Below are positions 1 to 9,739 of a stretch of DNA of 9,739 bases, piece by piece; within the stretch, counting starts at the first letter, position 1; each line of letters opens with the position of its first letter. The stretch covers positions 1 through 9,739 of the forward strand of contig JBDRGX010000044.1 in the NCBI GenBank assembly GCA_043817485.1, written 5' to 3'. The position numbers were made by a program, and so were the translations under genes. A model generated the notes under the pieces. It ran no database searches. It had not been told where the DNA came from and worked only from the letters and a program-made list of their open reading frames with translations. The stretch comes from JBDRGX01 sp043817485 [NCBI: bacterium] (GTDB lineage Bacteria > JBDRGX01).

Positions 1-107
1 GTGTCATAACTCTAAATCTAGACATCCACACCACAACATATTGTGGTTTTGTGGAAACCTACCACTTTATGTTGTAAAACAATTGCCGTGAAATTGAATT
101 ATGACAC
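1..107. repeat. MITE-like palindromic element with 9-bp terminal inverted repeats
   Basis: Bases 1-9 (GTGTCATAA) are the exact reverse complement of 99-107 (TTATGACAC); allowing two mismatches the match extends to 14 bases. Inside, CCACAA at 31-36 pairs with TTGTGG at 41-46 around a CATA loop, and the stem continues through CCAC 26-29 with GTGG 51-54. A second inverted repeat pairs 33-47 with 61-75 (13 of 15). No reading frame of note crosses it. The layout (terminal inverted repeats around a non-coding folded core) resembles a miniature inverted-repeat element. Because the left repeat starts at base 1, the true left end may lie outside the window. No transposase is visible and the family is not recognised. 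Confidence 0.5.
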
Positions 108-111
108 AGTC

Positions 112-129
112 TCATGAATTGCCCCTACA
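112..129 (-). repeat. Half of a GTAGGGGCAATTCATGA-type palindromic repeat
   Basis: Read on the minus strand this is GTAGGGGCAATTCATGAG. From memory, a longer palindrome in which this half is followed by its complement (AATTGCCCCTAC) is dispersed in several low-GC and candidate-phylum genomes. Here only one half is present, and it runs directly into the 1-107 element, as if that element had interrupted it. It lies about 10 bases past the TAA that would end the full-length metallophosphatase. The family recognition is recollection, not a search result. Confidence 0.35.
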
Positions 130-138
130 AAATTATTT

Positions 139-249
139 TTACTTCAACATCAACATTTTTTTACAATTTTGTGTTTTGTTATCAACAATTGTTTCATAAA
201 AATACATTCCTGATGAAACTTCTTTTCCTAAATTATCTCTTCCATCCTA
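139..249 (-). pseudogene. C-terminal end of the metallophosphatase sorting domain, behind an in-frame TAG
   Basis: The metallophosphatase frame stops at TAG (247-249) and then stays open for 35 more codons to a TAA at 139-141. The translation after the TAG begins DGRDNLGKEVSSGMYFY and ends CKKMLMLK. This is the expected last third of a FlgD-Ig / type IX type A sorting domain, whose usual text is WDGRD..G..VSSGVYFY...KKM.LLK. The TAG occupies the position of the conserved W, so one G-to-A change of TGG explains it. If not read through, the encoded protein lacks the last strands of the domain. The tail has kept its frame and its conserved residues, so any mutation is recent. Confidence 0.8.
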
Positions 250-1566
250 ATATACTGAATTATTTGAATTATTTGTAATTACTTCTCTAACTACTTGACC
301 AAGGATATTGTATATTTTTACTTTAACATTTGAGGTTTGATTTTTGTTGTTTGAAATTTCTATTGGAATATAACATTCGGGATTAAATGGATTTGGATAA
401 TTTTTAATTTTAGATAAATTCAAAGAATCTTTATTATAATTTAAAGAAGTGTCTTCTACTGTTAATTTAATAGAATTTAATATAGCACCCTTAGGATAAC
501 TCGGAACATATTCTGGAGGATAATGAGGATTACTATAGTTAGAGGTATGATCATTAAAAGCAACTAATCTAAATTCTATTGTTTTGCCATCTACTTCTGC
601 TTCTATAAAGCACTGTTCGCCTTCTCCCCAAACATCATTTTCTTGAAGACCTAATCTATATCTTTGTTCAGGGTTATTATATGATTCAAGAAAGTTACTA
701 CTGTATGTCCAAGTTCCATTTGCACCACCTGAAGGTACTTCTATAAAATACATACCATGTCTTAATGTTCTATAATATATATGATCATGCCCATGTAACC
801 AAGTAATAGTAAAATATTTTTTATTGGGATATTTATTTGCAAAATAATCATACATCTTCTTTAATTTTTGAATACTATTATCACTATATCGATGACAAGG
901 AGCATAAGCACTTACATGCTGAAAAAGAACAATGTGATCTATTTTCCCAATAGCACTATTAAAAAGATCATCTAAATAATTTTGTAATTCTGTCATTCTA
1001 TTATTATTTATAGGATCATCCCAAATATATTGACCATTTTTATAAATAAATTGGCTGGCATTTATACTAATAAACCTAACATTTCCAAAATCAAAATAAT
1101 AATCCATATTTTCTTTAGTTTGTCCAGGAAATCCTGATGCTTTTAAATATTTATCAAAATCTTCATCATTACTACTATCACGATGAACGTCATGATTTCC
1201 AGGACTAATAAAGTGAGCAATTTGTGAACGATTCGTTCCCCATAATTCTTCAAACTTAGCCCAGTCTTTTACATCTGTTCCAGCACCATACCAACTAATT
1301 ACATCACCATTATTTAGTAATAATTGAATATTTCTTTCTAATAAAGTAGATTGAAATATATTTGTTTTTTCAAGATATTCAGCTGTTACTGTTGATGCTG
1401 TATGAATGTCTGCTGTAGCTCCAAATTTCCATTTTCCCGTAGGAGAAGGTTTTTGGGATAAAATATCCATAGGATTATATCCAAAAACATTGGTAGCAAT
1501 AAAAACCAACAGAAAAATTAAAACTCTTTTATATATCTTTATATACTTTTTGTTAATTTTTTTCAT
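247..1566 (-). CDS. Secreted calcineurin-like metallophosphatase with truncated C-terminal sorting domain
   Basis: This is an exported phosphoesterase of the calcineurin-like superfamily; the substrate is unknown. Residues 1-29 are a signal peptide (KK-rich start, hydrophobic LIFLLVFIA). The dimetal site is complete: D53 and H55 (ADIH), D88 (NGD), N124-H125 (GNHD), H217 (FQH), and H260 and H262 (GHDH). Residues 388-439 open a FlgD-Ig / type IX sorting-type domain (YPNPFNPE, then VKIYNILGQVVRE), which is cut by a TAG at 247-249. The intact domain would continue to base 139 and give 475 residues. The start is ATG with an excellent AAGGAGG five bases upstream. It follows the acylphosphatase by 56 bases and may share its transcript. 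Catalysis should not need the lost tail, but secretion or surface anchoring through a C-terminal signal would. Enzyme class is certain, secretion route inferred. Confidence 0.9.
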   Translation of the reverse strand: MKKINKKYIKIYKRVLIFLLVFIATNVFGYNPMDILSQKPSPTGKWKFGATADIHTASTVTAEYLEKTNIFQSTLLERNIQLLLNNGDVISWYGAGTDVKDWAKFEELWGTNRSQIAHFISPGNHDVHRDSSNDEDFDKYLKASGFPGQTKENMDYYFDFGNVRFISINASQFIYKNGQYIWDDPINNNRMTELQNYLDDLFNSAIGKIDHIVLFQHVSAYAPCHRYSDNSIQKLKKMYDYFANKYPNKKYFTITWLHGHDHIYYRTLRHGMYFIEVPSGGANGTWTYSSNFLESYNNPEQRYRLGLQENDVWGEGEQCFIEAEVDGKTIEFRLVAFNDHTSNYSNPHYPPEYVPSYPKGAILNSIKLTVEDTSLNYNKDSLNLSKIKNYPNPFNPECYIPIEISNNKNQTSNVKVKIYNILGQVVREVITNNSNNSVY

Positions 1567-1571
1567 AAATT

Positions 1572-1578
1572 CCTCCTT
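1572..1578 (-). promoter_or_regulatory. Strong ribosome binding site of the metallophosphatase
   Basis: On the minus strand AAGGAGG is followed by AATTT and ATG. It is the best Shine-Dalgarno match in the window and fixes the start at 1566. It implies efficient translation of a gene whose 3' end nevertheless carries a premature stop. Confidence 0.75.
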
Positions 1579-1622
1579 ATTTTAAGAAAAAAAAGACCAT
1601 CTACTTTTTTATACAAAATTTG

Positions 1623-1901
1623 TCAATATTTAATTTCAAAATTAGTAAATTCATCAATATATTTTTCATAAATAATTTTTACATTTTTGACTTTTGCTTC
1701 AGAAGGTCCTTTATTTGCCCATTTAATTAAACAAGCAATATTTTGTTCTTCACCTTCTAATACTGCTTCTACTTGTCCATTAGAAAGATTTTTAACCCAA
1801 CCTTTTACTTCAAATTTTAAAGCTTCTTTTTGCATACAATATCTAAAAAAAACTCCTTGAACATATCCCAAAATATATAAATGTGCTCTTATTTTTGTAA
1901 T
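1623..1901 (-). CDS. acyP: Acylphosphatase, probable ATT start
   Basis: This small cytoplasmic enzyme hydrolyses acyl phosphates such as acetyl phosphate or 1,3-bisphosphoglycerate. The acylphosphatase signature is clear: GYVQGVFFRYCMQ with the phosphate-binding loop and catalytic Arg, then GWVKNLSNGQVEAVLEG with the catalytic Asn, then a WANKGP segment. A start at TTG 1869-1871 would give 82 residues and delete the first beta strand of the fold. The same frame is open upstream and encodes ITKIRAHLYILGYVQG, matching the normal N-terminus of the family. There is no ATG, GTG or TTG in that stretch. An ATT at 1899-1901 sits seven bases after GGAG and would give 92 residues, close to the usual length of about 90. 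The stop is TGA. The gene follows the TPR gene and is probably translationally coupled to it. Family certain; start codon is inference. Confidence 0.88.
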   Translation of the reverse strand: MTKIRAHLYILGYVQGVFFRYCMQKEALKFEVKGWVKNLSNGQVEAVLEGEEQNIACLIKWANKGPSEAKVKNVKIIYEKYIDEFTNFEIKY

Positions 1902-1943
1902 GTTAATTCTCCGAATGTTAATTCCTTGAATGTTAATTCTCCA
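1899..1943 (-). repeat. Three tandem 15-bp repeats carrying Shine-Dalgarno, stop and ATT
   Basis: On the plus strand the units are AATGTTAATTCTCCG, AATGTTAATTCCTTG and AATGTTAATTCTCCA, contiguous and equal in length. On the minus strand each reads as a purine-rich GGAG or AAGG, then AATTAAC, then ATT. Each unit therefore holds a Shine-Dalgarno-like run, a TAA in the TPR frame and an ATT in the acylphosphatase frame. The real TPR stop (1933-1935) is in the first unit met by the ribosome, and the proposed acylphosphatase start is at the end of the last. Since 15 is a multiple of three, copy number can change without altering either frame. Confidence 0.85.
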
Positions 1944-2478
1944 ATTCTTTTATTTTTTCTACAATATCAGATTGATTTGGATTTAATTCTAATGATTTTT
2001 TTAATTCATAAATAGCTTTTTCTTTTTGATTGATTTTTAAATAACAAAAGCCCAAATTATTATGTTTTTGCCAACTTATTTTTTCTATTGTTAAATATTC
2101 TTTTATTGCTTCTTGATATTTTTCTTGTTTAACATAAATATATGCTTTATATTCAGCTATTTCATCAAAAGATATAATTTTATTTATTTTTTTTAAAGTT
2201 TTTAAAGCTTTTTTAAAATTAGAAAGACAAATATAACTTTCTAAAAGTTTTAAATATGATTCTTTATCTTTTTTTGAAAGTTTTATTGCTTGTTTAAATG
2301 AATTACAAGCTAACTCATATTTTTTACTTCGTAATGCAGCTTTTCCTAATCCTAAATAACAAGAAAATGATTTAATATTTAGGTCTAAAGCAACTTGATA
2401 TTCAAAAACAGCTTCTTCATACATTTTCAAATCTAAATATATTTTAGCAATTGTTTCTTGTGCTTTTTTTTCCTTCAA
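1933..2478 (-). CDS. TPR-repeat protein, C-terminal half (frameshifted from the upstream half)
   Basis: This half encodes about five tetratricopeptide units, for example KMYEEAVFEYQVALDLN, KKYELACNSFKQAIKLS, NFKKALKTLKKI, EKYQEAIKEYLTIEKIS and QKEKAIYELKKSLELNPN, ending KELEN with TAA. Its only initiator is a TTG at 2476-2478 with no Shine-Dalgarno, lying inside the upstream TPR frame. It is therefore best read as the continuation of 2444-2977. Dropping one A from the run at 2464-2471 joins the halves as FSFEGKKAQETIAKIY, giving about 347 residues with nine TPR units. TPR proteins act as protein-interaction scaffolds; the partner is unknown. The next gene, acylphosphatase, begins within the repeat that contains this gene's stop. 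Confidence 0.8.
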   Translation of the reverse strand: MKEKKAQETIAKIYLDLKMYEEAVFEYQVALDLNIKSFSCYLGLGKAALRSKKYELACNSFKQAIKLSKKDKESYLKLLESYICLSNFKKALKTLKKINKIISFDEIAEYKAYIYVKQEKYQEAIKEYLTIEKISWQKHNNLGFCYLKINQKEKAIYELKKSLELNPNQSDIVEKIKELEN

Positions 2479-2977
2479 AACTAAAGGGCTTTAATTCAAC
2501 AACTTTTTGATAATTTAATATAGCTTCTTCCCAATTTTCTAATTTTTGAAAAACACGGCCCATATTCAAATAAGATTCCAAATTAGATGGATTTATTTCT
2601 AAAGCTTTTTTTAAAAATAAAATAGCATTTTCATAATCTTCTTTATACAAATAAACACAACCAATATTTTTATAAACTTTTTCATAATTAAAATTCTCTT
2701 GTTTAGAATCTATTATTTTTTGAAAACATTCAATAGATTTATCCCATTCTTGTATTTGTCGATAACAAATACCTAAAGCATTATAAACTTCAAAATAGTT
2801 TTGATCTATTTCTAAAGATTTAAGATAAAAGTCTATAGCTTTTGTATACATCATTTTTTCGTAAAATTTATTTCCTTGTTTATAATATTTTTCTGATTCT
2901 TCTGATGGAATATAAGATTCAGAAAAAACAAATAAAATTTGAAATACAAACAAAATAATAAAAAATTTATTTTTCAT
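2444..2977 (-). CDS. TPR-repeat protein, N-terminal half with signal peptide
   Basis: The start is ATG with GAGG five bases upstream. Residues 1 to about 20 are a hydrophobic signal peptide (MKNKFFIILFVFQILFVFS) with no lipobox cysteine, so the product is probably periplasmic. Four TPR units follow: MYTKAIDFYLKSLEID, EWDKSIECFQKIID, DYENAILFLKKALEINPS and NWEEAILNYQKVVELKP. The frame then leaves TPR sequence after an A8 run and ends with KSTRNNC and TAA, a tail with no TPR character. This is the 5' part of one gene with 1933-2478. The gene lies 125 bases after the large surface protein, which suggests envelope-related work, but no partner can be named. Confidence 0.85.
   Translation of the reverse strand: MKNKFFIILFVFQILFVFSESYIPSEESEKYYKQGNKFYEKMMYTKAIDFYLKSLEIDQNYFEVYNALGICYRQIQEWDKSIECFQKIIDSKQENFNYEKVYKNIGCVYLYKEDYENAILFLKKALEINPSNLESYLNMGRVFQKLENWEEAILNYQKVVELKPFSFEGKKSTRNNC
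2464..2471 (-). other. A8 homopolymer at the TPR frameshift
   Basis: The minus strand reads GAAGGAAAAAAAAGCACAAG. With eight A the upstream frame ends at TAA 2444-2446; with seven A it would run into the downstream TPR frame without a break. Such runs are prone to replication slippage, RNA polymerase slippage and sequencing error, so the frameshift may be real, compensated in the mRNA, or an artefact. Confidence 0.8.
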
Positions 2978-2980
2978 AAA

Positions 2981-2986
2981 TACCTC
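2981..2986 (-). promoter_or_regulatory. Ribosome binding site of the TPR gene
   Basis: The minus strand reads GAGGTATTTATG, identical in these 12 bases to the leader of murG. It supports the ATG at 2975-2977 as the start. Confidence 0.65.
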
Positions 2987-3003
2987 AATTATTAATTTCC
3001 AAC

Positions 3004-3024
3004 AATGTAATTTTTAATTACATT
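3004..3024. repeat. Intergenic hairpin upstream of the TPR gene
   Basis: AATGTAATT (3004-3012) and AATTACATT (3016-3024) form a perfect 9-bp stem with a 3-base loop. It lies in the 125-bp gap between the surface-protein gene and the TPR gene. No U-tract follows in either direction, so it is not a standard terminator. An mRNA-processing or stabilising hairpin is possible. Confidence 0.4.
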
Positions 3025-3102
3025 TTCACAAAATCTCTATTTTTAAGCATTAAAATTATTTAAAAAAATATTTCATTTTTTTTTGATTTTATTTTATAAC
3101 TT

Positions 3103-5886
3103 TTAAAACATATTATTCCAATATAAATAAAATACAGGTTGTTTTTTTATAGGAAGTGTCCATGCCCAATCAAATCTCCAAATAATTGGCATAAAAGAAA
3201 AAATCATTCGTAATCCTAATCCAGTGCTTATTTTTAAATCAGACCATTTTTTTTCTGTTGAAGAAAAAATACTTCCACCATCTACAAAAACAACTCCATA
3301 AACTCCATAAACAGTATTTAGAATATTATTAAAAAATAAAGTTCTTATTTCTATATTAGATAACCCAAATCCCATTCCTTTAAATTCTCCATATTCATAA
3401 CCTCTTATAGTATCTTGACCACCTACATAAAAATCATATTCATTTTGATTATATCCAGATTTTATTCTTCCACATAAAACAACTCGATTATTTAATGAAT
3501 GATATTTTCTATAATCTAATTGAATGCTGTTAAATTTTGTATTTCCTCCTAATATTTTATCAACTAAAATTAAAGTGTATTTACTTCTAATTCCATCTAT
3601 AGGATAATAAAAAAAATCCATTTTAGCATTATCAATAATAAAAGAAGATTCTAACCCTCTTAGAATATAAGTTTTATCACCTTCCCATTCATCAGATTGA
3701 AAAATAATTCCGCTTTCTAATCTTTTAAATTTATCAAAAGGGTATTTTATATTAAAATTTATTCCTGATAAATATCTTGATTGTAAAACAAAATTGTCAT
3801 TTTTTAAATAATATAAAGGAATATTAAAATATCCTATTTGATAAGACAATCTATTTTTAAAAGAAAAATAATTTGTCATAAAAAGAGTATTTTTAAATTG
3901 TTTATTTAAAGGTTCATCTTTTTTATTTATTTGTATATTAAGATTTTCTCCTTGTGCTATTATATATTTATTTCCCAACAAATCGCTTGCAATAAGTCCA
4001 AATCCTATGACACTTTCTCTAACTAAATCATAAGAAAAATAAGGAAATATTTTATCTAAACTTATTCCCAAATTAGGTTTTTCTTTAATTTCATTTTCAT
4101 CACCAATAAAATTTCTATTTTCTTTTTTTATTTCTTTTTCTTGAGGTTTTATTTTTAATTTAATTTTTTCATATTCATATTTTTCTTGATAAGGAGAAAT
4201 AAAAATAAGTTTTTCTTTTTGAATAATAGAGGGAATTATTTCTTTTAAAGATATTTCATATAAATTCATTTTTTCTTTTAAAAATACATTACATAAAATT
4301 CTATTTTCAAAAACAGAAGGTAAAAATACTCCTCCATTTATATCAGTAATTTGTTTTAAATTATTTCCAGTAATATCCATTTCATAAAGATTAAAGATTT
4401 CACAATCTTTATCAGAAATAAAAAATATTTTATTTCCATCTTGAGAAATAATTGGTTGAATATTATTATTTTGTTTAGTTAAAGAAAAAGGAGTGTTTTG
4501 AGGTGCATCTAAAAGAAAAATTTGTATTCCTTCATTTCGTTCTGCTGAATAAATAATTCCTTTATTGTTTGGTAATCCAATTGGTGTATTTTCTTGAAAT
4601 TCATCATTTGTCCATTTAATTAAATTTTGCCCATTTTTATCAATTGAATAAATATCAGATTGTCCATTTTTAAATCCAACAAAAATTATTTTATCTTCAT
4701 ACCAATTAGGAGAAATAATATCATCCAAAGGAACACTTATTTTTTTAGCAATTTTTCGATTATATATATTTTGAATAAAAATATAATTTTTGCCTTTTTG
4801 TTGAGCAATAAAAATAATTTCTTCACTATTAGAAGCCCATGAAAAAATATTTCCAGTTTGTGTATAACAAATATTTTCAAAAAATTTTCCACAAAGATAT
4901 TTTGAAAGAGAAATTTCTTTTTTAGAAAAATCAGAATTTTGTAAAAATAATTCAGTAAAATTATTTTTAGTAGAAAAATAAATAACTTTTTTTCCATCTG
5001 GAGAAAATTGCGGATTTATTTCAGAAGAAAATGTGTTTTTATTATTATTAACAATTTTTACATCATTTAAAGAAATATTTTTTTTTGTAGTAAAATTTAT
5101 ATGTTTTCTTTTTAAAAAAATACGCCAAAGAATATCTAATTCTTTGGTATTTATATTAATACTTTTTTGAAGTGCTTCATCAAAAGAAAGTGTTTCTTTT
5201 GAATATCTAAAAATATCTATTAATTTATGCTCTCCAAAACAAGAAACAATATATTCTATAAGAGAATGTGCTTCTTTATAAGCTAAATAAACAGATCCTT
5301 TTCCTGAAAGAGCATCATTTAAGTTTTCAATAGGAATAAAAGTATCATTTAAAATAGCATCTCTAATAAGCATTTTTTCATAAGTACTCCAATGAGATGC
5401 TTGATATTCAGCTAATCCTTCCATAAACCATAAAGGAATATTTTTTATTTGCTGTTCAGAAACAAAATTCAAATGAACTACATGAGTAAATTCATGAGTA
5501 ATTATTCTTTGTAATTCTTTTTTTGAAAAATCTAAAGGAATTACTATTCTATTTTTTGAAAAGGTAGTAAAACCTCCTACTCCTTCTCCAATAAAATCTG
5601 GACTAACATTTGTTTCTTCAAATTCATTATGAGATTTATAGATAATTAAAGGAGTAATTTTTGTAGGAATATATTTTAAACTATTTGTTACCTTGTCATA
5701 AGATTGTTCTGCCATTTTTGCTATTTTTTCAATTAAAATTTCATCACAATCATAATAAAGAATTTCAAAATGTTTAGCAGAATAAGTTTTCCAAATAAAA
5801 TTACGATAACAAACTTTATTTTTTCCAAATTCTTGAGCATTTATTGTTGTTATAAAAAATAAAAAAATAATAAATATTTTTTTCAT
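3103..5886 (-). CDS. Outer-membrane protein: gluzincin-type peptidase, TolB-like propeller and Omp85-like barrel
   Basis: The protein has 927 residues and a signal peptide (1-18, ending INAQ). Residues about 35-265 are a peptidase_MA-like zinc metallopeptidase domain, with H131-E132-F-T-H135 and the downstream zinc ligand E156 in WFMEGLAEY. Residues about 285-550 are PD40/TolB-type propeller blades, for example EINPQFSPDGKKVIYFS, PNWYEDKIIFVGFKNG and NIQPIISQDGNKIFFIS. A charged linker (about 565-605) leads to a C-terminal beta barrel of the bacterial surface antigen/BamA type, with RGYE near 828-831, VFVDGG near 867 and a terminal Phe. The barrel should sit in the outer membrane with the other two domains periplasmic or at the surface. 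The start is ATG with AAGGA upstream. It takes the place where murB often follows murC. Domains are well supported; the biological role is unknown. Confidence 0.88.
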   Translation of the reverse strand: MKKIFIIFLFFITTINAQEFGKNKVCYRNFIWKTYSAKHFEILYYDCDEILIEKIAKMAEQSYDKVTNSLKYIPTKITPLIIYKSHNEFEETNVSPDFIGEGVGGFTTFSKNRIVIPLDFSKKELQRIITHEFTHVVHLNFVSEQQIKNIPLWFMEGLAEYQASHWSTYEKMLIRDAILNDTFIPIENLNDALSGKGSVYLAYKEAHSLIEYIVSCFGEHKLIDIFRYSKETLSFDEALQKSININTKELDILWRIFLKRKHINFTTKKNISLNDVKIVNNNKNTFSSEINPQFSPDGKKVIYFSTKNNFTELFLQNSDFSKKEISLSKYLCGKFFENICYTQTGNIFSWASNSEEIIFIAQQKGKNYIFIQNIYNRKIAKKISVPLDDIISPNWYEDKIIFVGFKNGQSDIYSIDKNGQNLIKWTNDEFQENTPIGLPNNKGIIYSAERNEGIQIFLLDAPQNTPFSLTKQNNNIQPIISQDGNKIFFISDKDCEIFNLYEMDITGNNLKQITDINGGVFLPSVFENRILCNVFLKEKMNLYEISLKEIIPSIIQKEKLIFISPYQEKYEYEKIKLKIKPQEKEIKKENRNFIGDENEIKEKPNLGISLDKIFPYFSYDLVRESVIGFGLIASDLLGNKYIIAQGENLNIQINKKDEPLNKQFKNTLFMTNYFSFKNRLSYQIGYFNIPLYYLKNDNFVLQSRYLSGINFNIKYPFDKFKRLESGIIFQSDEWEGDKTYILRGLESSFIIDNAKMDFFYYPIDGIRSKYTLILVDKILGGNTKFNSIQLDYRKYHSLNNRVVLCGRIKSGYNQNEYDFYVGGQDTIRGYEYGEFKGMGFGLSNIEIRTLFFNNILNTVYGVYGVVFVDGGSIFSSTEKKWSDLKISTGLGLRMIFSFMPIIWRFDWAWTLPIKKQPVFYLYWNNMF

Positions 5887-5983
5887 GTAAAAATCCTTTT
5901 TTTATCTGGGAGTGTCAATAATAATATATTTTCCTTGCAGAGAAAATCCACTGTCATTTATCGGGAGAGATTCATATATTTTT
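5887..5983 (-). other. Short gap with an open, GC-richer tail after murC
   Basis: Past the murC TAA, one minus frame stays open for about 27 codons to a TAA near 5904, reading KKIYESLPINDSGFSLQGK and on to IDTPR. It has no start codon. It is out of frame with murC by one base, across a T5/A7 junction. The stretch is clearly less AT-rich than the genes on both sides. It may be the remnant of a removed gene, a murC extension hidden by an indel, or chance. I do not recognise the peptide. AAGGA for the next gene lies at its end. Confidence 0.3.
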
Positions 5984-7357
5984 TTAAAAAGTAATTTCCT
6001 TAATTATTTCATCTCCTATTTTATAAACATCTCCAGCTCCCATTGTAATAATTAGTGCATCTTTTGCAAAATTATTTATTACAAAATCAACAATGTCTTT
6101 TTTTTCTTTAATGAAAATTACATTTTTATGTCCATATTTTTTAATTATATTAGCCAAAAATTCTCCATTAATTCCTTCTATAGGAAATTCTCCAGCAGAA
6201 TAAATTTCAGTAATAATTAAAACATCAGCATTATGAAAAACTTTTGTAAATTCTTCTAACATATCATTTGTTCGAGTATATCTATGAGGTTGAAAAATAC
6301 ATACAATTTGCTTATCCCAATTTTCTTTAGTAGCTTTTAAAGTAGCTTCAATTTCTTTTGGATGATGAGCATAATCATCAACAATAACTATATTTTTAGA
6401 CTGTTTTTTAATTTGAAATCTTCTTTCAACTCCAGTAAATTCTTCTAAACCTTGCTTGATTGTTTTAAATTCTAAGCCCAATTCTAATCCTACAATAATA
6501 GAGCCCAAAGAATTTAAAATATTATGTTTTCCAGGAACATTTAATTTTATTTCACCTAATAATTTATTTTTATAAAAAGCTTTATATGCAGAACCATAGT
6601 TTTTAGATTTAATATCTTTTGCGATTATATCTGCTGAAGTATAAATTCCATAAGTAATATATTTTTTTACTATTAAATGTAAAATAGATTGAATATTTGT
6701 ATCATCAAGACAAAGAATAGCAGTTCCATAAAAAGGAATGTGATTAATAAATTCTACAAAAGCAGTTTTTATATTATATAAATTTTTGTAATAAGGAAGA
6801 TGTTCTTTATCTATATTAGTAACTAATGCTATAGTTGGATGAAGATGTAAAAATGAACCATCACTTTCATCAGCTTCTGCTATTAAAAATTCACCTTTTC
6901 CTAATTTAGCACTAACTCCTCCAATAGAATTTAATTTTCCACCAATAATCATTGTAGGATCTAATCCTGCTGTAGAAAACATTAAAGAAATCATTGAAGT
7001 AGTTGTAGTTTTTCCATGAGAACCAGATATAGCAATACTATATTTTGCTCGCATAAGTTCTGCTAACATTTCTGCACGAGGAATAACTGTAATTTTTCTA
7101 TTTTTTGCAGCAATAATTTCATCATTATCAGAAAAAATAGCTGAAGAAAATACAACAACATCAACATCTTTTATATTTTCTGCTTTATGTGAATAATATA
7201 TTTTTATTCCTTTTTGTTCTAATCTATGAGTTATACTTGTTTCTTTAATATCAGAACCACTTATTTTATAACCTAAATTTAATAAAATTTCTGCTATTCC
7301 ACACATTCCAATACCACCAATTCCAACAAAATGTATTTTAGTGTTTTTTTTAATCAT
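5984..7357 (-). CDS. murC: UDP-N-acetylmuramate--L-alanine ligase
   Basis: MurC is the ATP-dependent cytoplasmic ligase adding L-Ala to UDP-MurNAc, the first peptide step of peptidoglycan precursor synthesis. The 457 residues match the usual length. Visible motifs are the N-terminal VGIGGIGM (11-18, UDP-sugar domain), the P-loop SGSHGKTTTT (111-120), EADESDGSF (161-169), TNIDKEH (180-186), GKHNILN (276-282), ERRF (311-314), DDYAHHP (327-333), QPHRYTR (356-362) and the C-terminal MGAGD. The ATG is fixed by AAAGGAG six bases upstream, which lies inside the last Arg codons of murG. The two genes share one base in TAATG, so translation is coupled. All catalytic signatures are present and the gene appears functional. 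Confidence 0.97.
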   Translation of the reverse strand: MIKKNTKIHFVGIGGIGMCGIAEILLNLGYKISGSDIKETSITHRLEQKGIKIYYSHKAENIKDVDVVVFSSAIFSDNDEIIAAKNRKITVIPRAEMLAELMRAKYSIAISGSHGKTTTTSMISLMFSTAGLDPTMIIGGKLNSIGGVSAKLGKGEFLIAEADESDGSFLHLHPTIALVTNIDKEHLPYYKNLYNIKTAFVEFINHIPFYGTAILCLDDTNIQSILHLIVKKYITYGIYTSADIIAKDIKSKNYGSAYKAFYKNKLLGEIKLNVPGKHNILNSLGSIIVGLELGLEFKTIKQGLEEFTGVERRFQIKKQSKNIVIVDDYAHHPKEIEATLKATKENWDKQIVCIFQPHRYTRTNDMLEEFTKVFHNADVLIITEIYSAGEFPIEGINGEFLANIIKKYGHKNVIFIKEKKDIVDFVINNFAKDALIITMGAGDVYKIGDEIIKEITF

Positions 7358-8457
7358 TATCGTCTCCTTTGAGCTATTTTATAAATAATCTTAACAATTT
7401 TATCTGTTGCATTTTCAATAAATAATGCTTTACTTTTTTCACTCATTTTTTTAAGTTTATTTTCATCATAAATTAAAGAAAGAATTAAATTTTTTAATTT
7501 TGATATTGTAATTTCTTTTTGTTCTAAAACAATTGCTGCTCCATTATTTTCTAATGTTTTAGCATTATGCCATTGATGATTATTTGCTGCATAAGGAAAA
7601 GGAATAAATATAGCAGGGATTCCAATGCTCATTATTTCAGAAATACTTATTGCTCCAGATCTACTAATAATTAAATCAGCTGCACAATAAGCATCTTCTA
7701 TATTAGTTAAAAAAGGCTTTCTTATAAGAGAAATAAATTCATAATTTTGTTTCAAATTAAAAGATACATAATCTTTTTTTCCAGTAATATGAATAATTTG
7801 AAAAGAATGTTTTTCTTCTTCTAATATGTTTATAACTTGATTTGTTATTTCGTTGATAAAATGAGATCCTTGGCCACCACCTAAAAATAAAATAGTTTTT
7901 TTGTTTTTAGATAAAGCAAAAAATTTTAAAGATAATTCTTTAGTATTATTTAATATTTTTTTTCTTATTGGATTTCCAGTATTTTCTTTTTTATTAGAAC
8001 TAATTTTAAAATATTTACTTGCTTGTTCATTAGGTAAACAAACATAATCAACTAAATGCGATAAAATTTTATTAGCAATACCAGGAATTGTATTTTGCTC
8101 TAATATAATTCTTGGATATTTTAAAATCCAAGCAGCAATTAAAACTGGTACAGAAACATAACCACCTGTTCCAATTACTATATCTGGTTTTAATTTAAAA
8201 CAAATTGAGAATGCTTTCATTAAAGCAAAAAATAAATCAAAAAAAGAAATAATTTTTTGTAAAAATGGTTTTCCAACAATTCCTTTTACATTAAGAAATA
8301 AAAGTTTAAAATTATATTCTGGAAGAATTTTTGCTTCTAATCCATTTTTAGTTCCAATAAAAATAATTTCATTATTTAATTCTTGTAATTTTTCAGCAAT
8401 ACAAATACCTGGATAAAGATGCCCACCAGTACCACCTCCAGCAATAATTATACGCAT
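7357..8457 (-). CDS. murG: UDP-N-acetylglucosamine--MurNAc-pentapeptide-lipid N-acetylglucosaminyltransferase
   Basis: MurG (GT28) transfers GlcNAc to lipid I to make lipid II on the inner face of the cytoplasmic membrane. The protein has 366 residues from the chosen start. Motifs are the lipid-I site GGGTGGHLYPG (7-17), GTGGYVSVP (96-104), EQNTIPGIANK (120-130), GNPIR (161-165), GGGQGS (193-198, where GGSQGA is usual), SRSGAISISE (265-274) and PFPYAANNHQWHNA (286-299). I chose ATG 8455-8457 because GAGG stands five bases before it and the family N-terminus starts here; a TTG six codons earlier has no ribosome binding site. It ends IAQRRR and overlaps murC by one base. The changed G-loop residues look like conservative variation. 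Confidence 0.97.
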   Translation of the reverse strand: MRIIIAGGGTGGHLYPGICIAEKLQELNNEIIFIGTKNGLEAKILPEYNFKLLFLNVKGIVGKPFLQKIISFFDLFFALMKAFSICFKLKPDIVIGTGGYVSVPVLIAAWILKYPRIILEQNTIPGIANKILSHLVDYVCLPNEQASKYFKISSNKKENTGNPIRKKILNNTKELSLKFFALSKNKKTILFLGGGQGSHFINEITNQVINILEEEKHSFQIIHITGKKDYVSFNLKQNYEFISLIRKPFLTNIEDAYCAADLIISRSGAISISEIMSIGIPAIFIPFPYAANNHQWHNAKTLENNGAAIVLEQKEITISKLKNLILSLIYDENKLKKMSEKSKALFIENATDKIVKIIYKIAQRRR

Positions 8458-8462
8458 AAATA

Positions 8463-8466
8463 CCTC
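8463..8466 (-). promoter_or_regulatory. Ribosome binding site deciding the murG start
   Basis: The minus strand reads AAAGAGGTATTTATG. The GAGG five bases before ATG 8455-8457 rules against the TTG at 8473-8475, which would add six residues ahead of MRIIIAGGGTGGH. Confidence 0.7.
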
Positions 8467-8647
8467 TTTATTCAATATTTTCTTGTAGATACAAATCTTT
8501 TGATTACCTTATTAACAGGAACAAACTATGCACAATATAATTTTATTAGCAATAAACCAAAATAAAGCATTTCCCCCTCAAATGGATTATAAAAAAAATT
8601 CTATATTTTTTTTTATTCTGAATTCTAACTCCTGTATTCTGTCTTTC

Positions 8648-8674
8648 TACAATAATACCACCCTTTCAGGGTTT
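8648..8674. repeat. Hairpin repeat, copy 1 (AATAATACCACCCTTTCAGGGT)
   Basis: AATAATACC is followed by the stem ACCCT / AGGGT around a TTC loop (8660-8672). Aligned with copy 2 at 8698-8724 the leader is nearly the same, and both stem differences keep base pairing. On the minus strand it reads AACCCTGAAAGGGTGGTATT, a pattern I recall as common between genes in Bacteroidota/Ignavibacteria-like genomes; that recollection is unverified. Confidence 0.6.
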
Positions 8675-8697
8675 TAACTGAAATTATTAATAATATG

Positions 8698-8724
8698 CTA
8701 TAATAATATCATCCCTTCGGGATT
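8698..8724. repeat. Hairpin repeat, copy 2 (AATAATATCATCCCTTCGGGAT)
   Basis: The stem ATCCC / GGGAT with loop TTC (8711-8722) follows AATAATATC. Compared with copy 1, stem pair two changes from C-G to T-A and pair five from T-A to C-G, so both sides change together. This suggests the folded form, or its recognition by a protein, is what is kept. Confidence 0.6.
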
Positions 8725-8745
8725 AAATTTTTTGTTTTTTTCTTT

Positions 8746-8765
8746 GTCCCCTGCTGGCAGGGGAC
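8746..8765. repeat. 20-base GC-rich palindrome
   Basis: GTCCCCTGCTGGCAGGGGAC is a 9-bp perfect stem around TG, extended by a flanking T-A pair to 8745-8766. It is the most GC-rich spot in the window. A T-rich tract precedes it and no T-tract follows it on the plus strand; on the minus strand it is followed by A-rich sequence. It therefore does not look like an intrinsic terminator. Most likely it is a dispersed palindromic repeat or a protein-binding site. Confidence 0.6.
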
Positions 8766-8804
8766 ATTTATAAGTCATTGCACTACCAATTCCATGAGGT
8801 TATC

Positions 8805-8816
8805 AATAATACCACC
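8805..8816. repeat. Hairpin repeat, partial copy 3
   Basis: AATAATACCACC is identical to 8651-8662 of copy 1, but the GGG-containing right arm is not preserved; ATTCAAATG follows instead. It is the third member of the cluster and probably a decayed one. Confidence 0.4.
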
Positions 8817-8846
8817 ATTCAAATGAGAACAAAGCATCCACACCCC

Positions 8847-8883
8847 CGAATATATTATAATTAACATAATTATAATATATTCG
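8847..8883 (-). terminator. 17-bp hairpin downstream of the aminotransferase, possible transcript end
   Basis: Bases 8847-8863 and 8867-8883 are perfectly complementary (CGAATATATTATAATTA with its reverse complement) around a 3-base loop. It lies 36 bases past the aminotransferase stop. A 3'-end role fits the position, but on the minus strand the next bases are GGGGG, not T, so it is not a classical intrinsic terminator. A structural repeat is the alternative. Confidence 0.35.
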
Positions 8884-8919
8884 AAAATTTAGTTTGTTAA
8901 CATTTAATAATTTATTATT

Positions 8920-9739
8920 TTATTCCAATATTTCAAATGCTTTTTTTATTCTATTACAAGCATTTATAATGTTTTCCATTGAAGTAGCATAAGAAAGTCT
9001 TAAATGGTCATTTTTACCAAATCCTTCTCCAGGAACAACAGCAACTTCTGCTTTTTCCAAAAGATATTCTGCTAAATCTGCTGCACTTTCTATTTTTTTT
9101 CCTGAATAATTTTTGCCTAATAATTTTGATATATCAAGAAAAAGATAAAAAGCACCTTCTGGTTTAAGACAAGAAACATTTGATAAAGTATTAAAAAAAT
9201 TCCAGATATAATCACGCCTTTTTTCAAATTCTTTTTTCATTGTTTCTATTTTTTGAGAAGAATAAGAAAAAGCTTCTAATGCTGCTTTTTGAGAAATAGA
9301 ACAAGGATTTGAAGTAGAATGACTTTGAAGTGTATCTATAGCAGAAATAATTTCTTTTTTTCCAGCCAAATAACCTATTCTCCAACCTGTCATTGCATAA
9401 GTTTTCGAAACACCATTTACAATTAAACAAAGTTCTTTTATTTTATCATTTAAAGAAGCAATACTTATATGAATTTTGTCATCATAAATTAATTTTTCAT
9501 AAATTTCATCAGAAATACAAAAAATATTTTTTTCTACTAAAACTTGGGCAATTTGTTCTAATTCTTTTTTTGAATATATAGAACCAGTAGGATTATTAGG
9601 AGAATTAAGTATAAATAATTTTGTTTTAGAAGTAATAGCTTTTTCTAATTCTTCTTTTGTAATTTTAAATTTATTTTCTTTTAAAGTTTCAACAATAATT
9701 GGTGTAGCACTAGCAAGTTTTATTTGTTCAAAATAACTT
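8920..9739 (-). CDS. aspC: Class I pyridoxal-phosphate aminotransferase, aspartate aminotransferase type (N-terminus outside window)
   Basis: This is a cytoplasmic PLP enzyme, most likely exchanging amino groups between aspartate and 2-oxoglutarate. The frame is open from the TAA at 8920-8922 to the right edge, giving 272 codons. A family member has about 390-400, so roughly 120 residues are missing at the N-terminus. Motifs in order are NSPNNPTG (9583-9606), SDEIYEKL with the PLP-pyridine Asp and ring Tyr (9490-9513), VSKTYAMTGWRIGYLAG with the Schiff-base Lys at 9403-9405, PEGAFYLF, VVPGEGFG, and HLRLSYA with the substrate-carboxylate Arg at 8998-9000. The Met at 9391-9393 lies inside the catalytic motif and is not the start. 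Subfamily I is clear; the exact substrate (Asp, or another amino acid) cannot be read from the sequence. Confidence 0.94.
   Translation of the reverse strand, partial: SYFEQIKLASATPIIVETLKENKFKITKEELEKAITSKTKLFILNSPNNPTGSIYSKKELEQIAQVLVEKNIFCISDEIYEKLIYDDKIHISIASLNDKIKELCLIVNGVSKTYAMTGWRIGYLAGKKEIISAIDTLQSHSTSNPCSISQKAALEAFSYSSQKIETMKKEFEKRRDYIWNFFNTLSNVSCLKPEGAFYLFLDISKLLGKNYSGKKIESAADLAEYLLEKAEVAVVPGEGFGKNDHLRLSYATSMENIINACNRIKKAFEILE

Follow-up and report, generated by a model that had tools for sequence, protein, structure and literature searches.

Initiation at AUU is a known but rare kind of natural translation start, represented by infC and pcnB of Escherichia coli, pncA of Borrelia and cvfC1 of Staphylococcus aureus. 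Here these systems are compared with a predicted acylphosphatase gene which lacks a canonical start codon at the expected position and whose best start candidate is an AUU codon. The gene is located on the minus strand of a 9,739-nucleotide stretch of DNA (contig JBDRGX010000044.1 of assembly GCA_043817485.1, positions 1 to 9,739), referred to as the window throughout this work. Like the window, the genome of Borrelia burgdorferi is A+T-rich.

The published cases are cited from excerpts of the respective papers. In E. coli infC (PMC5472188) and pcnB (known from a reference title in PMC13009471), AUU takes the place of the canonical start, as it appears to do in the window. Acylphosphatase, in contrast to the products of these two genes, is not known to be connected with translation or polyadenylation. 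Initiation factor 3 (IF3) represses its own ATT start in E. coli and a GTC start in Streptomyces (PMC5472188); infC is under feedback control, whereas control of the window gene by IF3 is without support. B. burgdorferi pncA (bbe22) shows that a metabolic enzyme can be made from an AUU start in a bacterium and, as with the window gene, its family N-terminus was missed by annotation restricted to canonical starts; the AUU start of pncA is backed by genetics, biochemistry and structure, whereas that of the window is deduced from DNA sequence (PMC13398362). S. aureus cvfC1 (AUU) and ccpN (AUA) likewise combine a non-canonical start with Shine-Dalgarno (SD) support, but their SD is extended and reported to be conserved in relatives, while the window offers a four-base core in a single sequence (PMC13009471). 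Clostridia are able to use an engineered AUU start (PMC11040787). An AUU start in combination with acylphosphatase was not found among the matches listed from the open-licence literature.

An acylphosphatase frame without a canonical start

The elements that define the gene and its start region are as follows.
Positions 1623 to 1901, minus strand: acylphosphatase frame (PF00708), from ATT (1901-1899) to TGA (1625-1623), 92 codons without internal stop.
Positions 1899 to 1901, minus strand: ATT codon, the most likely start according to a walk along the frame and the register with the solved structure 1v3z.
Positions 1909 to 1912, minus strand: GGAG, SD core read from the sequence, ending 7 bases before ATT 1901.
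Positions 1869 to 1871, minus strand: TTG, the nearest canonical alternative, at which a start would remove the first strand and which has no SD site of its own; predicted SD pairing -2.1 kcal/mol.

The match to PF00708 was full-length (82.2 bits compared with a curated cut-off of 22.5; profile positions 2-85 of 85) and began at residue 7, while matches to NCBIfam models began at residues 2-10 (25 models shown of 30). Best match among solved structures was Protein Data Bank (PDB) chain 1v3z, from Pyrococcus horikoshii, with residues 4-80 aligned to residues 4-80 without a gap. As this alignment extrapolates to the chain's first residue, ATT 1901-1899 corresponds to residue 1 of 1v3z. Acylphosphatases carry a GxVQGVxFR loop together with a catalytic Arg and Asn. 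Among 13 aligned sequences, that of the window included, 13 columns were invariant and all of them are kept in the window protein. Residues G12, V14, Q15, G16, V17, R20 and N38 belong to this category (13/13), and Arg20 and Asn38 are those which we take to be catalytic. In random sequence of the same composition, 92 open codons were found in approximately 0.0001 of 20,000 trials, and the G+C content at third codon positions (0.05) is near that of the other genes (0.06-0.13). The coding frame of the gene is intact, and its product is a predicted acylphosphatase. Relative to PF00708 proteins such as 1v3z, it shares the full-length domain, the N-terminal register and the conserved active-site motif, and differs in the start codon only.

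An earlier note on this DNA had proposed a probable AUU start, arguing that the family N-terminus is in frame at this codon, that ATG, GTG and TTG are missing back to a stop near 1950, that GGAG stands seven bases before ATT, and that TTG 1871 would cut off the first strand. All four observations held on re-examination. The previous in-frame stop is TAA 1952-1950, and the 16 codons between it and ATT 1901-1899 include neither ATG, GTG and TTG nor CTG; five of them are themselves ATT (1937, 1931, 1922, 1916 and 1907). Downstream, the frame continues with ATA 1892, ATT 1874 and TTG 1871-1869. The strand that would be lost was predicted at residues 3-11 by a single-sequence structure model, which is poor (mean predicted local distance difference test score 49.2) and carries little weight. 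Predicted pairing with an assumed anti-SD sequence amounted to -6.6 kcal/mol for ATT 1901, within the range of five neighbouring genes (-5.6 to -11.1 kcal/mol). However, for 45 of 536 minus-strand ATT words one of four SD cores is located at a distance of 4-10 bases upstream; taken by itself, the SD would thus be matched in about 1 of 12 cases. The unusual feature is the absence of a start where a conserved protein requires one, not the SD. The leader RNA is nearly unstructured (minimum free energy -2.4 kcal/mol, z 0.53); folding revealed no notable RNA structure at the start, and nothing in Rfam reached gathering scores. Register, SD and elimination together point to AUU 1901-1899 as the best start candidate.

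Acylphosphatase matches were present in 213 of 398 genomes of one phylum, and 70 of these loci served as control (the first 30 plus 40 in listed order; G430, G075 and G185 were skipped on account of very long open frames). What was scored was the canonical codon nearest query residue 1, which is not a proven start. In all 70 loci, ATG, GTG or TTG occurred in frame no later than query residue 8. The nearest codon was ATG in 48 loci, GTG in 17 and TTG in five, and it was located at -5 to -3 in 14 loci, at -2 to +4 in 55 and at +8 in one. Since only five of the 70 loci have a G+C content below 0.40, the control is poorly matched to the window in composition. An acylphosphatase copy on a Borrelia parkeri plasmid starts with ATG. 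Plasmid records matching acylphosphatase numbered 97, all with less than 60% identity. Five distant acylphosphatases aligned from viral contigs all had an in-frame canonical codon at or upstream of query residue 1, with two of them (L077 and L078) sitting in frames open to the edge of the locus.

The explanation favoured here, tentatively and at slightly less than an even chance, is a real, intact acylphosphatase gene with a working AUU start at 1901-1899, a low yield, probably a recent change from AUG, and no need for a regulatory role. The initiator tRNA (anticodon CAU) would pair with the first two bases of AUU but not with the third, and the ribosome would be held there by GGAG 7 bases upstream and the almost unstructured leader. 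On an unstructured leader with a normal SD, AUU may be usable at low efficiency. The amount of protein would then be small, plausibly between a few and ten percent of that from AUG. The codon itself most likely goes back to AUG, changed recently at a single base under strong mutation pressure towards A+T. The frame, the lack of canonical starts, the SD, the register and the open coding region are shown by the sequence, and initiation at AUU, low yield and AUG ancestry are what we infer.

A 15-bp tandem array with three in-frame ATT codons

ATT 1901-1899 closes a tandem array which the earlier note had not mentioned. A repeat search located its three copies at 1899, 1914 and 1929 with a spacing of 15.
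Positions 1899 to 1943, minus strand: tandem array of three 15-bp copies (Tandem Repeats Finder: 1899-1942, score 67, period 15, 2.9 copies).
Positions 1914 to 1916, minus strand: second-copy ATT, in frame and 5 codons ahead of ATT 1901, with AGGA 6 bases before it.
Positions 1929 to 1931, minus strand: first-copy ATT, in frame and 10 codons ahead of ATT 1901, with GGAG 7 bases before it, 1 base after the stop of the upstream tetratricopeptide repeat (TPR) frame.

Within every copy of the array, an SD core is combined with TAA, read in the TPR frame, and ATT, read in the acylphosphatase frame. As all three ATT codons are in frame, there are three candidates for an AUU start. The earlier proposal of an AUU start therefore stood insofar as ATT 1901-1899 came out as the best candidate, and has to be qualified insofar as the array offers two more. 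Of the three, register favours the third as the putative start.

If ribosomes started at ATT 1931 or at ATT 1916, perhaps reinitiating once past the TPR stop, the protein would be longer by 10 or 5 residues, respectively. Each of these codons has its own SD core at a distance of 6-7 bases and no stop follows in frame; ATT 1931 lies 1 base past the TPR stop, and short extensions do occur, as shown by the 14 control loci with the nearest canonical codon at -5 to -3. However, the family match does not reach the added residues, its first position being residue 7 (PF00708), 2-10 (NCBIfam) or 4 (PDB chain), and most control loci have their nearest canonical codon at -2 to +4. Such an upstream start is regarded as improbable. 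Tight stop-start coupling would fit the first-copy ATT only, 31 bases separating the TPR stop from ATT 1901.

The overlap of the two frames also bears on a TPR-acylphosphatase fusion for which the ribosome would shift by +1 at AAU-UAA-C, stimulated by the upstream GGAG. The model for such an event is prfB, in which an SD-like stimulator precedes the +1 shift. The acylphosphatase frame, open from 1949, overlaps the TPR end, and GGAG stands immediately before the final sense codon. Against this, a slipped P-site tRNA would, by our reasoning, re-pair badly, and the family match requires no partner domain. We consider a fusion of this kind very improbable.

The array might also act as a functional ladder of three SD-stop-AUU modules in which the repeat number tunes acylphosphatase output or coupling to the TPR gene, a proposal to which little probability is assigned. 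As the unit equals five codons, copy-number slippage would add or remove a weak in-frame start and leave both genes unbroken. An equally strong array was found somewhere in 22 of 200 shuffled windows, which makes it moderately unusual only. The array was further considered as proof that the ATT is older than the duplication. This argument was rejected, since 1899 is the last base of the array and a unit one base shorter would still give ATT in copies 1 and 2.

Apparent damage in the flanking genes

The genes on both sides of the acylphosphatase gene were inspected.
Positions 1933 to 2977, minus strand: TPR-repeat coding region, upstream, in two overlapping frames which both match TPR models.
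Positions 247 to 1566, minus strand: calcineurin-like phosphoesterase gene, downstream, whose frame ends at TAG 249-247 inside a type IX sorting domain.

A run of eight A at 2471-2464 marks the junction of the two TPR frames (2977-2444 and 2478-1933); the frame change there may be due to slippage, to a genuine break in the gene or to faulty assembly. Beyond TAG 249-247, 35 more codons are open up to TAA 141-139, which has a chance of approximately 0.025 in random sequence of the same composition. When the frame was read through TAG from 420, the match to Por_Secre_tail rose from 28.0 to 34.7 bits and lengthened from profile positions 2-44 to 2-73 of 75. The 35 residues after TAG on their own matched no Pfam family. 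As regards a possible reading of TAG as a sense codon, TAG as the end of another frame was not encountered in the eight frames of the window that were examined. The viral-contig scans were otherwise empty apart from one 32%-identical match to the sorting tail.

The window opens at base 1 with a 107-bp element (1-107) resembling a miniature inverted-repeat transposable element (MITE), with 12-nt terminal inverted repeats (GTGTCATAACTC) that are 92% complementary. A pattern of its ends had a single match in the window, and 200 shuffles gave none. Neither this MITE-like element nor the flanking lesions had been mentioned in the earlier note.

Several points weigh against a working AUU start at 1901-1899: (i) the flanking TPR and phosphoesterase genes both look interrupted; (ii) the first and second array ATT codons are nearly equal to the third in SD pairing (-6.4 and -5.2 kcal/mol); (iii) raising IF3 to 1.5 uM reduced in vitro incorporation of N-formylmethionine at AUU by CAU tRNA to 31.1%, according to the excerpt of PMC10158994; (iv) the same excerpt describes weak codon-anticodon pairs with another N-terminal residue and very low yields in vitro (PMC10158994). 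Decay and sequence error are live rivals because the flanking genes look damaged and lie near a window end with a MITE-like element. In view of these lesions, start loss by either route is a strong rival to designed control.

In the case of gene decay, loss of the start would have accompanied the breakdown of the TPR and phosphoesterase genes, leaving a fresh acylphosphatase pseudogene with at most residual AUU translation. The TPR frame change at the A run and the TAG within a sorting domain whose match lengthens on read-through agree with this scenario, as do the very low G+C content (0.21-0.27 across positions 1-8000) and the clustering of all three oddities within the first 2.5 kb of the window. 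On the other hand, apart from its start the acylphosphatase frame is undamaged, its codon usage is normal and the family-invariant residues are kept; internal stops are absent from all four other genes (aminotransferase part, MurG, MurC and MA-TolB-Omp85), and the residues past TAG, taken alone, lack a Pfam match. Decay is judged unlikely, though it deserves serious attention.

That base 1899 was miscalled or misassembled, and that the codon is in truth canonical, is likewise unlikely in our estimate, with a probability that is far from negligible. The two additional lesions are located near the window end that opens with a MITE-like element, a kind of place at which assemblies often break off. 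Assembly of tandem repeats is difficult, and a real switch from AUG to AUU has a very low prior. Conversely, A or T runs at least 7 long occur 41 times in the window, many of them within genes without internal stops, suggesting mostly good sequence. In addition, the T at 1899 continues the 15-bp periodicity, an argument that is weak given that this is the last base of the array and that T is expected there by composition with a chance of roughly one in three.

The missing start is most likely due to a recent single-base change or to decay and not to a new control device. No evidence for a regulatory role of the AUU start was found.

Expected output and further features of the window

The earlier note had suggested that the AUU could limit expression or couple it to the TPR gene. 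An AUU start is expected to lower expression. According to the excerpt of PMC13009471, reporter output from AUU and AUA sites in S. aureus reached approximately 10% of the AUG level in poor medium. Gene callers restricted to ATG, GTG and TTG would either truncate the acylphosphatase to 82 residues from TTG 1871 or miss the gene. If the favoured start is real, one more metabolic enzyme joins the few natural AUU starts, here in a strongly A+T-biased genome. If decay or error is the cause, the locus calls for caution: in contigs of unknown origin, neighbouring genes should be checked for lesions before a rare start is called regulatory.

Positions 3103-5886 encode one 927-amino-acid protein which combines a peptidase MA domain, a TolB-like propeller and an Omp85 barrel. 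When genome contigs were scanned with this neighbour, the one segment obtained, 29% identical, came from a Pelagibacterales genome; that genome and 40 relatives gave no match (0 of 41). Within the MA-TolB-Omp85 gene, a 33-bp tandem repeat is present at 4235-4307 (2.1 copies, score 93). The listed frame of MurG starts at TTG 8475, whereas ATG 8457, with AAGAGG upstream, is its likely true start. A non-coding gap of about 460 bp before MurG (8458-8919) contains imperfect copies of a CTACAATAATACCACCCTTTCAGGG-like unit and, at 8847-8883, a perfect 17-nt inverted repeat.
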